Assembly (NCBI GenBank): GCA_035556555.1
Contig: DATMES010000046.1
Coordinates: forward strand, 124,001 to 188,000
Length of the DNA stretch: 64,000 nucleotides
Direction of reading: 5' to 3'
DNA from: Frankiaceae bacterium
GTDB lineage: Bacteria; Actinomycetota; Actinomycetes; BP-191
Within the stretch, counting starts at the first letter, position 1, and the number at the start of each line of letters is the position of its first letter. This document shows positions 1,317 through 7,265 of this stretch, in pieces. The position numbers and the translations under genes are program-made. The notes beneath the pieces were generated by a model that saw only the letters and a program-made list of their open reading frames with translations, had not been told where the DNA came from and made no database searches.

Positions 1317-1346
1317 TTGTCGCGGCCCCTTCGGCGGGCGTACAAC
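1317..1346 (+). promoter_or_regulatory. Promoter of candidate ncRNA (TTGTCG, 18 bp, TACAAC)
   Basis: A -35-like TTGTCG (1317-1322) and a -10-like TACAAC (1341-1346) are separated by 18 bp. This predicts a transcript start near 1353, at the beginning of a hairpin-rich, non-coding stretch that ends in a strong terminator. Confidence 0.45.
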
Positions 1347-1352
1347 TTGCAC

Positions 1353-1545
1353 ACGCCAGCGGCGGGCAGGACCGGTCCGGAGGAGACTCCGGACACGGAA
1401 GACAGGTCGGGCAACCGGCCTGGCGGACGGGTCTCAGCAACCGCTGACGGGTCTCGTAGCTAAGGCGGCCGAGCGATCGGCAGCCGGTGCCGCGGGATCG
1501 GCGAGGCCCCTCCGGCTCATACCCGGAGGGGCCTCGTTTCATTGT
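1353..1545 (+). ncRNA. Candidate structured small RNA with GNRA-capped hairpins
   Basis: No protein-like reading frame is visible. Successive hairpins are: GTCCGGAG/CTCCGGAC with loop GAGA (1375-1394); CAGGTCGG/CCGGCCTG with loop GCAA (1403-1422); TCAGC/GCTGA (1434-1447); GCCGA/TCGGC with loop GCGA (1468-1481); then a 13-bp terminator (1503-1535) followed by a T-rich run. Three loops are GNRA only when read on the + strand, which fixes the orientation. A -10-like TACAAC lies just upstream. I could not match it to RNase P, SRP, 6S, 6C, tmRNA, cobalamin, SAM or c-di-AMP/GMP riboswitch consensus sequences from memory. The next gene is convergent, so this is more likely a free-standing RNA than a riboswitch leader. 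Confidence 0.5.
1503..1535 (+). terminator. Rho-independent-type terminator, 13-bp perfect stem
   Basis: GAGGCCCCTCCGG (1503-1515) pairs perfectly with CCGGAGGGGCCTC (1523-1535) across a 7-nt loop and is followed by GTTTCATT. It ends the candidate ncRNA and may also serve the convergent dprA-like gene. Confidence 0.8.
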
Positions 1546-3004: not shown

Positions 3005-4051
3005 ATGGCAGTCGAACGACGCGTGCCCGCGTCCCGTACCGCCGCCCTGACGCGGCTCGGCGCGACCGCCGGCCTGCCGTCACCCGAGCTGCGGCGCGTC
3101 GCGCGCCTCGCCGCGCATGTCGGGGTGCAGCCGTACGGGCTCCCGATGGCCGCGATCCACCTGCTCGACGACACGCTGCAGCACCGCGTGGCGAGCGCCG
3201 GCGGGCCGCCGCTCGTGCACTCGGCCGCGCGGGACAGCATGTGCCTGCAGGTCGTGGAGGGCGAGCGTGCCGTGTACTGCGCGGACGCCAGCCGCGAGCC
3301 GCGGTACGCGGGGAACCCGAACACGACCGGGCCGGAGGCGGTGCGGCTGTACTACGCGACGCCGTTGCGGATCGGTGGGACGACGGTGGGCGCGCTGTGC
3401 GTCTTCGACACCCGGGTCGGCACGCTGGACCGGGTGCAGCGGGCGCGGATCGGCGACCTCGCGCAGCAGGTGGTGTCGTACTTGGAGATGGCGAGGCTGT
3501 GCCGCGACCTCGCGTACGTCGCGACGCACGACCCGCTCACCGAGGTCGCCAACCGGTGCCTGCTGTCGGAGCGGCTGGAGGCGTGCCTGGCGTCGTCGCG
3601 GCGCGCTGTGCATGAGCCGTCGCTGCTCGTCGTGGACCTCGACGACTTCAAGGCCGTGAACGACCGGTACGGCCACGTGGTCGGCGACGAGGTGCTGGTC
3701 GGGACGGCCGCGCGGCTGCGGGAGTCGGTGCGGCTCGGCGACCTGGTGGCGCGGATCGGCGGGGACGAGTTCGCGGTGCTGTTCGAGAAGGTGCCGGACC
3801 CTGGGCTGCTGTCGGAGATCGCGGAACGGGTGGCGCGGCGCTGCGCGGAGCCGTACGCGACGACCGCCGGGCCGGTGCGGTGCCGGGCGAGCGTCGGGCT
3901 GGCGCTGGGTCAGCCGGGTGACTTCGCGTACGAGCTGCTTGGCCGCGCGGACGCGGCGATGTACGCGGAGAAGGCATCGATGTCCGCACAGCCGCGGACC
4001 CCGCACGACGTCCCCGCGGCGCGTCGCGAGATACGCCTGCCACTGCGCTAA
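3005..4051 (+). CDS. GAF-GGDEF diguanylate cyclase
   Basis: 348-residue cytoplasmic sensor that should make cyclic di-GMP from two GTP. Residues about 20-165 form a GAF domain (AAIHLLDDTLQHRVASAGG ... YYATPLRIGGTTVGALCVFD). Residues about 180-330 form a GGDEF domain with DPLTEVANR, LLVVDLDDFKAVND, the intact RIGGDEFAV signature and a C-terminal ADAAMYAEKA helix, so catalytic activity is expected. No transmembrane segment or EAL domain is present. ATG at 3005 is the first start that preserves the GAF N-terminus. It is a single gene, convergent with the nrdJ operon. The window also carries an EAL gene and two degenerate c-di-GMP-type domains. Confidence 0.9.
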   Translation: MAVERRVPASRTAALTRLGATAGLPSPELRRVARLAAHVGVQPYGLPMAAIHLLDDTLQHRVASAGGPPLVHSAARDSMCLQVVEGERAVYCADASREPRYAGNPNTTGPEAVRLYYATPLRIGGTTVGALCVFDTRVGTLDRVQRARIGDLAQQVVSYLEMARLCRDLAYVATHDPLTEVANRCLLSERLEACLASSRRAVHEPSLLVVDLDDFKAVNDRYGHVVGDEVLVGTAARLRESVRLGDLVARIGGDEFAVLFEKVPDPGLLSEIAERVARRCAEPYATTAGPVRCRASVGLALGQPGDFAYELLGRADAAMYAEKASMSAQPRTPHDVPAARREIRLPLR

Positions 4052-4249: not shown

Positions 4250-7063
4250 CTAACTACAACCACTCGTGCTGCCGCAGGACTCGCAGACGTAGCAGGAGCC
4301 CGCGGGGCGCATCTTGATGCCGCAGTTGAGGCACAGGGGGGCGTCCTGCGCGGTCTGGGCGGACACGTCCAGGCCGCCCCCGCCCGACGGGGACGTCTGG
4401 GGCGCGGGCGCGACGTCGTGCTCCAGCGGAACGCTCTGCGCCAGGCCCTCGACGTCGACCTCGGCCACGTCGGCGGGCGTGGAGCCGTACGACGACGCCA
4501 CGGACGCGGCGCGCTCCTCCGCCGTGAAGATGCCGAGCTCGGCCCGCTGCTCGTACGGCAGGTAGTCGAGCGCCAGCCGCCGGAAGATGTAGTCCATGAC
4601 GGACTGGGCCATCCGCACGTCGGGGTCGTCGGTCATGCCGGCCGGCTCGAAGCGCATGTTGGCGAACTTCGACACGAACGCCTCGAGCGGCACGCCGTAC
4701 TGCAGGCCGATGGAGATCGCGACGGAGAACGCGTCCATGACGCCGGCCAGGGTCGAGCCCTGCTTGGACATCTTGATGAACACTTCGCCGAGGCCGTCGT
4801 CGGGGTACGAGCCCGCCGTCATGTAGCCCTCGGCGCCGGCGACGGAGAACGACACCGTCTGCGACGGGCGCTTGCGCGGCAGGCGCTTGCGGACGGGCCG
4901 GTGCTCGTGCGGCTCCATGGCGGCAGTCTGCGCCGCCGCGGCCTTCTTGGTGTCGTTCATGTCGGACAGCGGCTGCCCGACCTTGCAGTTGTTGCGGTAG
5001 ACGGCGATCGCCTTGAGGCCGAGCTTCCAGCCCTCGAAGTACGCCTTCTCGATGTCCTCGACGGTCGCCGACTCGGGCAGGTTGACGGTCTTGGAGAGGG
5101 CACCGGAGATGAACGGCTGGATCGCGGCCATCATCCGGATGTGGCCCATCCACGAGATGGACCGCTCCCCCATCGCGCAGTCGAACACCGCGTAGTGCTC
5201 GGGGCGCAGGCCGGGCGCGTCGACGACGTGGCCGTGCTCGGCGACGTACTCGACGATCGCCTCGACGATCTCCTCGTCGTAGCCGAGCTTGCGCAGGGCG
5301 GCGGGGACGGTGTTGTTGACGATCTTCATCGACGCGCCGCCGACGAGCTTCTTGTTCTTGACGAGCGCGAGGTCGGGCTCGAGGCCGGTGGTGTCGCAGT
5401 CCATCATCAGGCCGATGGTGCCGGTGGGCGCGATGACCGACGCCTGGCTGTTGCGGTAGCCGGAGGCGAGGCCGGTCTTCTGGCACTCCTGCCACGCGCG
5501 CGTCGCCTCGTGCAGGATCCGCGCGTCGTCGGCGCCGAACGGCCGCAGCGAGTCGTTGGCCGCGGCGTGCTTGCGGATGACGCGCTGGTGGGCGTCGGCG
5601 TTGCGGGCGTAGCCGTCGTACGGCCCGACGATGCCGGCGAGCTCGGCGGAGCGCTTGTACGCCGTCGCCTGCATGAGCGAGGTGATCGCGCCCGCCATGG
5701 AGCGGCCGGCGTCGGAGTCGTACGGCAGGCCGTTGGCCATGAGCAGGGCGCCGAGGTTGGCGTAGCCGATGCCGAGCTGGCGGTACGCGCGCGTGGTCTC
5801 GCCGATCGCCTGCGTCGGGAAGTCGGCGAAGCAGATCGAGATGTCCATCGCCGTGATGACGAACTCGACGACCTTGGCGAACGTCTTGGCGTCGAACGTG
5901 CCGTCCTCGCGCAGGAACTTCATGAGGTTGAGCGAGGCGAGGTTGCACGAGGAGTTGTCGAGGTGCATGTACTCGCTGCACGGGTTGGACGCGGTGATGC
6001 GGCCGGTCTCGGGGCAGGTGTGCCAGTCGTTGATGGTGTCGTCGTACTGGATGCCGGGGTCGGCACACTCCCACGCGGCGGTCGCGATCTTGCGGTACAG
6101 CGTCTTGGCGTCGACGGTCTCGATGACCTCGCCGGTCTTGCGCGCCTTGAGCCCGAACTCGGTGCCGGCCTCGACGGCGCGCATGAACTCGTCGGTGACG
6201 CGGACGGAGTTGTTGGCGTTCTGGTACTGGACGCTGACGATGTCGCGGCCGCCGAGGTCCATGTCGAACCCGGCGTCGCGCAGGACGCGGATCTTGTCCT
6301 CCTCGCGCGCCTTGGTCTCGATGAACTCCTCGATGTCGGGGTGGTCGACGTCGAGGATGACCATCTTCGCCGCGCGCCGGGTGGCGCCGCCGCTCTTGAT
6401 GGTGCCGGCGGAGGCGTCGGCGCCGCGCATGAACGACACCGGGCCGCTCGCCGTGCCGCCGGAGGACAGCAGCTCCTTGGACGAACGGATGCGGGAGAGG
6501 TTGAGGCCGGCGCCGGAGCCGCCCTTGAAGATGATCCCCTCCTCCTTGTACCAGTTGAGGATGGAGTCCATCTGGTCGTCGACGGAGAGGATGAAACAGG
6601 CTGAGACCTGCTGCGGTGCGGTGGTGCCGACGTTGAACCAGACGGGGCTGTTGAAGCTGAACACCTGGTGCACGAGCATGTGCTTGAGCTCGTGCTCGAA
6701 GATCTCCGCGTCGGCCGGGGTGGCGAAGTAGCCGTTGTCGACGCCGGCCTTCGTGTAGGTGTCCACCACGCGGTCGACGACCTGCTTGAGCGACCACTCG
6801 CGCTGCTCGGTGCCGACGGCGCCGCGGAAGTACTTGGTCGTGACGATGTTGGTGGCGTTGACCGACCAGGACGACGGGAACTCCACGCCGCGCTGCTCGA
6901 AGTTGACGGAGCCGTCGCGCCAGTTGGTCATGACGACGTCGCGGCGTTCCCACTCGACCTGGTCGTACGGGTGCACGCCCTCGGTCGTGAACACGCGCTG
7001 CAGACGGAGCCCCGCGGCCTTCTTCGAGGTCTTCGCGGGTGCGCCGTTCGCCGTCTCCGTCAT
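4250..7063 (-). CDS. nrdJ: Adenosylcobalamin-dependent (class II) ribonucleotide reductase
   Basis: 937-residue enzyme reducing ribonucleotides to deoxyribonucleotides with coenzyme B12. Recognisable elements are the N-terminal NVGTTAPQQVSACFILSVDD region, the GGSGAGLNLSRIRSS loop, the active-site region NPCSEYMHLDNSSCNLASLN, SVIAPTGTIGLMMDCDTTG, and a C-terminal cysteine-rich tail (CLNCGIKMRPAGSCYVCESC) that delivers electrons. Start ATG 7063 is chosen because GAGAGG lies 9 nt upstream; the ATG at 7072 would touch that site. Upstream lie a damage-type promoter (7117-7139), DnaA-box-like repeats and a pair of NrdR boxes, and nrdR itself is nearby, so dNTP-responsive repression is expected. 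Confidence 0.97.
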   Translation of the reverse strand: MTETANGAPAKTSKKAAGLRLQRVFTTEGVHPYDQVEWERRDVVMTNWRDGSVNFEQRGVEFPSSWSVNATNIVTTKYFRGAVGTEQREWSLKQVVDRVVDTYTKAGVDNGYFATPADAEIFEHELKHMLVHQVFSFNSPVWFNVGTTAPQQVSACFILSVDDQMDSILNWYKEEGIIFKGGSGAGLNLSRIRSSKELLSSGGTASGPVSFMRGADASAGTIKSGGATRRAAKMVILDVDHPDIEEFIETKAREEDKIRVLRDAGFDMDLGGRDIVSVQYQNANNSVRVTDEFMRAVEAGTEFGLKARKTGEVIETVDAKTLYRKIATAAWECADPGIQYDDTINDWHTCPETGRITASNPCSEYMHLDNSSCNLASLNLMKFLREDGTFDAKTFAKVVEFVITAMDISICFADFPTQAIGETTRAYRQLGIGYANLGALLMANGLPYDSDAGRSMAGAITSLMQATAYKRSAELAGIVGPYDGYARNADAHQRVIRKHAAANDSLRPFGADDARILHEATRAWQECQKTGLASGYRNSQASVIAPTGTIGLMMDCDTTGLEPDLALVKNKKLVGGASMKIVNNTVPAALRKLGYDEEIVEAIVEYVAEHGHVVDAPGLRPEHYAVFDCAMGERSISWMGHIRMMAAIQPFISGALSKTVNLPESATVEDIEKAYFEGWKLGLKAIAVYRNNCKVGQPLSDMNDTKKAAAAQTAAMEPHEHRPVRKRLPRKRPSQTVSFSVAGAEGYMTAGSYPDDGLGEVFIKMSKQGSTLAGVMDAFSVAISIGLQYGVPLEAFVSKFANMRFEPAGMTDDPDVRMAQSVMDYIFRRLALDYLPYEQRAELGIFTAEERAASVASSYGSTPADVAEVDVEGLAQSVPLEHDVAPAPQTSPSGGGGLDVSAQTAQDAPLCLNCGIKMRPAGSCYVCESCGSTSGCS

Positions 7064-7116
7064 GCCATCCATCCCTCTCTGCAACGCCGCGCGGCGGCGA
7101 TTTCGTCCTGTCCGGA

Positions 7117-7139
7117 AGTCTGGATCAGGGGTGTGACAA
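7117..7139 (-). promoter_or_regulatory. RecA-NDp/PafBC-like promoter of nrdJ: TTGTCACAC-N8-CAGACT
   Basis: On the minus strand TTGTCACAC (7139-7131) is followed after 8 nt by CAGACT (7122-7117). The predicted start near 7110 gives a leader of about 47 nt before the nrdJ ATG. Confidence 0.6.
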
Positions 7140-7159
7140 GTTTTCTGCGCCCGCTGGCC

Positions 7160-7201
7160 TGTGGACCGGGCGGTGGACAACCCGGGCAGATCGGTGGACA
7201 A
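7160..7201 (+). repeat. DnaA-box-like repeats upstream of nrdJ
   Basis: TGTGGACCG (7160), GGTGGACAA (7172) and GGTGGACAA (7193) lie in the same orientation. The last two differ by one base from the perfect TGTGGACAA. DnaA control of ribonucleotide reductase is known for E. coli nrdAB; here it is inferred. Confidence 0.5.
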
Positions 7202-7217
7202 GCTGTGCGCATCCTGT

Positions 7218-7265
7218 GCACTACATGTGGATGAATCACAGTGGTGTAAGCACTAGATGCAGTAG
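7218..7265. promoter_or_regulatory. Tandem NrdR boxes, 32 bp centre to centre
   Basis: Two 16-bp elements, GCACTACATGTGGATG (7218-7233) and GCACTAGATGCAGTAG (7250-7265), each carry the NrdR core CwAnA-TnTwG with one mismatch. Their centres are 32 bp apart, three helical turns, which is the usual spacing of NrdR box pairs. They lie upstream of nrdJ, with nrdR at 8787-9269. Confidence 0.75.

Follow-up and report, generated by a model that had tools for sequence, protein, structure and literature searches.

A Predicted Structured RNA Family of the Class Actinomycetes with Phased DnaA-Box-like Repeats Upstream of Its Promoter

The Locus and Its Predicted RNA

The window analyzed here is a 64,000-nucleotide stretch of contig DATMES010000046.1 from a Frankiaceae bacterium. 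Near its beginning lies an intergenic region bounded upstream by a TetR gene (PF00440/PF02909) on the + strand and downstream by a convergent DprA-like gene (PF02481) on the - strand (1588-2343), in which an initial annotation had proposed a free-standing structured RNA with a promoter of the form TTGTCG-18-TACAAC, three GNRA hairpins, and a 13-bp terminator. Both neighbors, the promoter elements (TTGTCG, 1317-1322, and TACAAC, 1341-1346, separated by 18 nt), and the three hairpins are found as described; the terminator is likewise present with its T-rich tail, but its stem measures 14 bp in the consensus and at most 16 bp in the single-sequence fold rather than 13 bp. The DprA-like gene (1588-2768 region, - strand) has a short reading frame, upstream of which coding signal seems to run on in another frame (2265-2768), so this gene may be frameshifted or truncated.

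We place the predicted RNA, about 190 nt long, at 1352-1540 on the + strand, with its start inferred from the -10 element and its end from the terminator in the absence of expression data. The prediction rests on covariation and on folding energy, the minimum free energy of 1341-1545 being -123 kcal/mol, whereas dinucleotide-shuffled sequences average -89.4 ± 4.8 kcal/mol (z = -7.07). The minus strand of the same interval also folds better than its shuffles (z = -4.45).

The covariation-supported fold, all on the + strand, is organized around two long-range helices. P1 (1355-1361 with 1442-1448) closes a multiloop and shows double-sided changes at six of its seven pairs across 15 homologues, six of the seven forming in the window itself, while P2 (1369-1373 with 1430-1434) is paired in 93% of alignment cells, with double changes at 3/7 consensus pairs. 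Within the multiloop stand P3 (1376-1393; loop GAGA at 1383-1386), which is 97% paired with double changes at 5/7 pairs, and P4 (1403-1422; loop GCAA at 1411-1414), which is paired in 97.3% of cells and also appears in the single-sequence fold. There follow P5 (1450-1499), a long irregular hairpin with the loop GCGA (1473-1476), 90% pairing, and double changes at 12 of 18 pairs, and the predicted intrinsic terminator (1502-1541), whose stem (1502-1515/1523-1536) carries the 7-nt loop CTCATAC (1516-1522) ahead of the T-rich tail. A local CAGCAACCGCTG hairpin of the single-sequence fold is replaced by P1. The initial annotation contained neither P1 and P2 nor three features described below: the phased array of DnaA-box-like sites, the invariance of the terminator loop, and the spread of the family through the class.

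Covariation and GNRA Loops

The structure proposed for this locus is borne out by compensatory changes among relatives. In an alignment of 15 homologue sequences (A2), such changes occur in 32 of the 58 base pairs, a number reached by none of 500 shuffles, and compensated variation is present in all six helices (P1, P2, P3, P4, P5, and the terminator). The paired columns pair in 94.1% of cells, and sliding the partners by 1-3 columns lowers pairing to 32-50%.

The initial annotation had also noted that GNRA loops occur on one strand only, and this bias extends to the homologues: among 45 of them, 126 of 144 predicted tetraloops are GNRA, whereas the antisense strand yields 2 of 103 and shuffled sequences about 5 of 36. 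The hairpin loops interchange among GCAA, GCGA, GAGA, GAAA, and GUAA, a few arms carry CUUG instead, and some family members have extra GNRA arms. We give practically no credence to the notion that these are chance hairpins of GC-rich sequence; GC-rich genomes do fold readily, as the minus strand (z = -4.5) illustrates, but covariation, the one-strand GNRA bias, and the conserved promoter and loop all speak against it, and the homologue data refute it. Without expression data, we nonetheless regard it as nearly certain that the RNA gene is real.

Distribution

Homologues occur in many families of actinomycetes. By blastn against 98 related genomes, the RNA was recovered from about a dozen, which belong to several families. 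The exact terminator-with-loop pattern recovered 53 loci in named species genomes, of which 52 are labeled actinobacterial metagenome-assembled genomes; their taxa include Frankiaceae, Streptosporangiaceae, Nocardioidaceae, Sporichthyaceae, Acidothermaceae, Nanopelagicales, and others. The family may have been overlooked because most of its named matches are metagenome-assembled genomes.

A covariance model (R1) built on 15 of the terminator-pattern loci has matches in 70 of 395 genomes of the class Actinomycetes, representing 47 of 138 genera, with the caveat that some of the weakest matches may be due to chance. Across a phylum-wide sample, R1 matched only two of 397 genomes, both within the window's own class, and the family therefore seems confined to that class, within the sensitivity of the model. 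The complete genomes G133, G123, G173, G058, G219, and G279 are among the carriers. In several genomes the RNA is present two or three times at dispersed sites, and one genome has a pair of copies lying 508 bp from each other. At locus L066, tandem copies (2783-2974 and 3290-3482) each have their own box array and promoter.

Three further observations concern the carriers. An RNA with several extra GNRA arms occurs in a record titled Spirochaetaceae (L060; JAJAYQ010000018.1), whose public name looks wrong, as the same locus appears as genome G096 of the window's class. The plasmid and phage collections contain no match to the RNA, and we rejected a plasmid or phage element on this ground. We also rejected the identification of the complete-genome carriers of genus g37 as nitrogen-fixing Frankia, since no nifH was found in them above the cut-off.

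The Promoter and Its Association with the RNA

The -35 element of the window (TTGTCG; family consensus TTGYGC) has a counterpart before most homologues, and the -10 element (TACAAC; family TA(G/C)A[A/C]NT) is conserved among them, so that TTGYGC-N17/18-TA(G/C)A is found at the matching place in most cases. The -35 element also precedes most R1 matches, although R1 includes no promoter, which provides an independent validation. Own promoter and own terminator are kept together as a unit across homologues. Between the upstream array and the -35 element, an A/T-rich spacer (1286-1311, + strand) is marked by its conservation: counted from the -35 element, positions -30 to -28 are kept as A and positions -19 to -17 as A/T, and relatives have a AAAGAATCTTGAA-type block; we infer that it acts as an UP-like element or as an unwinding region.

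A pattern blind to the RNA, consisting of one box, the -35 element, and the -10 element, was run on the same 395 class genomes and gave 48 matches, compared with about 14 for the reversed control. Twenty-four of these lie directly upstream of R1 matches, and about 19 others stand before RNAs not detected by R1, which end in the same kind of terminator loop and include all ten promoter-pattern loci of family f26. The pattern thus reaches this RNA in about 43 of 48 matches, while four look like chance. Because a pattern without RNA information recovers the RNAs together with the same loop, we conclude that the promoter with its array, the GNRA arms, and the terminator loop occur as a set.

An Upstream Array of DnaA-Box-like Sites

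Upstream of the window promoter, five DnaA-box-like 9-mers lie on the same strand (1211-1283, + strand): TGTGGACGT at 1211, GGTGGAAAA at 1223, GGTGGACAA at 1243, GGTGGACAT at 1264, and TGTGGACGC at 1275, in steps of 12, 20, 21, and 11 bp. The E. coli DnaA box consensus is 5'-TTWTNCACA (PMC5043019), and the array 9-mers fit this consensus, with many boxes differing from it by one or two bases. At 37 terminator-pattern loci, the + strand carries 63 boxes of the TGTGGAYAA type and the - strand 7, where shuffles average 4.2 over both strands, and the bias was replicated at 22 other loci found with the covariance model (35 on + and 13 on -; shuffle mean 2.5). Box starts cluster at about -118, -106, -94, -84, -73, -63, -53, and -42 relative to the -35 element, and the cores are spaced with a period of 10.6-10.7 bp, 229 of 294 distances being in phase where 30% would be expected. 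Some members, such as parts of families f34 and f38, have no recognizable boxes.

That the 9-mers are DnaA sites is inferred from their sequence, and in the absence of binding data we consider it probable that DnaA binds the array. An unlikely, though by no means negligible, alternative holds that the RNA family is real and that its phased repeats are read by another protein, such as a nucleoid or cell-cycle regulator, with no direct link to replication. The boxes do vary in sequence (GGTGGACAT, TGTGGACGA, TGTGGGTAA, GGGGATAAC), only a third of the TGTGGA cores continue with [CTA]A, and phased direct repeats are bound by other factors too. DnaA remains the better candidate in our judgment, however, given that perfect and one-mismatch copies of TTGTCCACA/TTATCCACA recur at fixed positions and that the same 9-mers cluster around dnaA, as TGTGGACAA, GGTGGACAA, TGTGGACAT, and TGTGGAAAA do in genome G133.

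Elsewhere in the window, three DnaA-box-like 9-mers fall within about 60 bp (7171-7234) at the start of nrdJ, which encodes a class II ribonucleotide reductase (4250-7201, - strand). In E. coli, nrd promoters are controlled by DnaA.

Position on the Chromosome

The row of same-facing boxes about one or two helical turns apart, followed by an A/T-rich block, recalls an oriC array. We rejected the identity of the RNA locus with oriC on the grounds of position, skew, and variable neighbors; G133, a complete genome, has its GC-skew change and a box cluster at dnaA, 273 kb from the RNA. The distance between RNA and dnaA is 138-316 kb in eight family f19 genomes (for G123, assuming a circular chromosome); in G219 it is 1.2-1.8 Mb from dnaA, and in G279 it sits mid-chromosome, in the same range. 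A fixed distance from oriC was also rejected, as it holds in family f19 only and not elsewhere.

We find it quite improbable that the locus serves chiefly to titrate or reactivate DnaA, in the manner of datA or DARS, with the RNA or its transcription being secondary. A dense, one-sided box cluster outside oriC, at 138-316 kb from dnaA in the eight f19 genomes, is what such a site might look like, but the position is not kept outside f19 (as G219 and G279 attest), the number of boxes varies widely among members while the RNA stays, and selection acts strongly on the RNA structure in its own right.

In the window's own genome (L083, G000:C36; 6521-6785 and 8256-8550), where boxes were counted only in the stretches retrieved, the dnaA-dnaN gap of about 266 bp has a single poor box, with five boxes on the far side of dnaA, so that oriC may be located upstream of dnaA.

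A Free-Standing Gene Rather than a Cis Leader

The initial annotation had argued from the convergent downstream gene that the RNA is not a cis leader, and the homologues uphold this view. Neighboring genes change from clade to clade, with shared neighbors only between closely related loci, and promoter and terminator are kept as a unit; the RNA is therefore encoded by a free-standing gene. Of 49 automatically called loci, 30 have their nearest downstream gene on the strand of the RNA, and in the other 19 that gene faces the opposite way. For the window, the automatic call took a spurious + frame, the real downstream gene being the DprA-like gene on the - strand. A constant class of same-strand downstream gene, the hallmark of a cis leader or riboswitch, was not met among the called loci or in the window.

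A riboswitch or attenuator whose terminator acts as the switch is accordingly a scarcely credible reading. It could draw on those clades in which a same-strand gene follows at about 90-500 nt, such as the five loci with a likely NCS2-type permease, but downstream genes are unrelated between clades and face the opposite way in 19 of 49 called loci as well as in the window, the terminator is the most invariant part of the RNA, and no alternative anti-terminator pairing is supported. In the clade comprising L038, L064, L072, L074, and L078, the RNA stands about 180-530 bp upstream of one transporter gene on the same strand, which, judged by eye from its sequence, likely encodes an NCS2-type permease.

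The Terminator Loop

The loop of the terminator is almost always CUCAUAC, even where the stem differs: CTCATAC is kept in 10/10 loci of family f26, found by the promoter pattern alone, despite different stem sequences, while family f19 has CCCTTAC and close variants. Because the loop is constant across stems of different sequence, it is selected as sequence and the stem as structure. Whether the loop is also the main contact of the RNA we consider an even bet, its function being inferred.

The complement of the loop, GUAUGAG, includes a start codon and occurs at 27 sites genome-wide, compared with 15 for a reversed control. No convincing target emerged from the 27 sites in the RNA's own genome, and no GTATGAG was found around the dnaA starts of 12 genomes, for which reason dnaA mRNA was rejected as a target of the loop. 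The anticodon loop of methionine tRNAs is CUCAUAA. The loop of this RNA is nearly identical to it, which we treat only as a lead.

A Model for a DnaA-Linked RNA

From the conserved structure, promoter, phased boxes, invariant loop, and variable neighbors that we observe, we propose that the locus encodes a structured RNA acting in trans, that DnaA or another protein using DnaA boxes controls its transcription, and that the CUCAUAC loop is its contact surface. With no expression or binding data at hand, we put the probability of this reading at roughly 0.58. A free-standing RNA of about 190 nt would be transcribed, as we infer, from its own sigma-70-type promoter and end at its own terminator. 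The DnaA-type boxes, which face one way at intervals of one or two helical turns, occupy the region about 40-120 bp upstream of the -35 element, and a protein, most likely DnaA, would oligomerize on this array and turn the promoter up or down, with both its binding and the direction of regulation being inferences. If the promoter is controlled by DnaA, the output of RNA would be tied to DnaA activity and thus to the replication cycle. The RNA itself would be a rigid scaffold, with GNRA-capped arms on the P1/P2 junction, that presents the CUCAUAC loop as its likely contact surface; the loop would either be bound by a protein or pair, as a 7-nt antisense seed, with its complement GUAUGAG.

A bolder version, which we judge improbable, is that an oriC-like DnaA filament drives a class-wide RNA acting as a replication-coupled riboregulator, with CUCAUAC mimicking tRNA-Met as a decoy or serving as a seed against start codons; if true, such a loop would link replication initiation with translation initiation.

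Irrespective of mechanism, a widespread, covariation-backed noncoding RNA family, unmatched in Rfam 15, is added to the class Actinomycetes, including members from complete genomes, and this RNA is linked to sites typical of the replication initiator DnaA. Should DnaA control it, the replication clock of actinomycetes would have a regulatory RNA as a direct output.

Comparison with Known Systems

As the initial annotation had suspected, no known family accounts for the RNA. The whole window has no Rfam match at gathering thresholds, and 20 homologous loci have none in Rfam 15 at E ≤ 0.01; the best weak match around the locus (E = 0.058, below the cut-off) is on the other strand, over the terminator. 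The covariance models of 6S, Ms1, raiA, OLE, ROOL, and GOLLD gave no score above the curated threshold. A search of the open-access literature found nothing matching on DnaA-box-associated RNAs or on a CUCAUAC loop, subscription papers being outside our scope. Because no curated family matches and no matching open-access paper was found, we rate the RNA family, of which the first described member is reported here, as new; this covers the family and the way its promoter is built, and does not extend to regulatory RNAs as a concept.

Bacterial RNAs such as raiA, OLE, ROOL, and GOLLD have strongly branched folds, are free-standing, and remain poorly understood in function. Our RNA resembles them in being free-standing, multi-hairpin, GNRA-rich, and strongly branched, whereas it is smaller, has other promoter and terminator hallmarks, and matches none of their covariance models.

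Closer in size are 6S and its actinobacterial relation Ms1, structured and free-standing RNAs with promoters of their own. Ms1 and its synteny are reported to be missing from Frankiales (PMC9130861), and the present RNA is found in metagenome-assembled genomes named Frankiaceae or Frankiales, so that a counterpart of these RNA polymerase-binding RNAs in lineages where Ms1 was not detected might be imagined, the more so given its similar size, own promoter, and free-standing state. We hold this to be very improbable, as the consensus (a P1/P2 junction with hairpins, P5, and the terminator) is one of branched GNRA arms without the long hairpin and central open bubble, neither the Ms1 nor the 6S model matches even at E up to 10, no Rfam match exists, and the RNA is not beside the HAD-hydrolase genes of the Ms1 synteny.

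Small RNAs that serve replication or cell-cycle control offer a functional parallel to the proposed DnaA-linked RNA. The gene of CcnA, a noncoding RNA of Caulobacter, lies at the replication origin (PMC8959179), and EcpR1 of Sinorhizobium is a noncoding RNA tied to replication or the cell cycle (PMC4414408). Both are alphaproteobacterial, with no sequence link found to our family, and the activator of CcnA is reported to be presumably CtrA rather than DnaA.

The nearest likeness on the DNA side is to oriC, datA, and DARS. The array described here differs from these in that it is not at oriC, has no conserved position, and is joined to a structured RNA gene, but it shares with them the clustering of DnaA boxes, and its spacing and A/T-rich block recall those of an oriC array.
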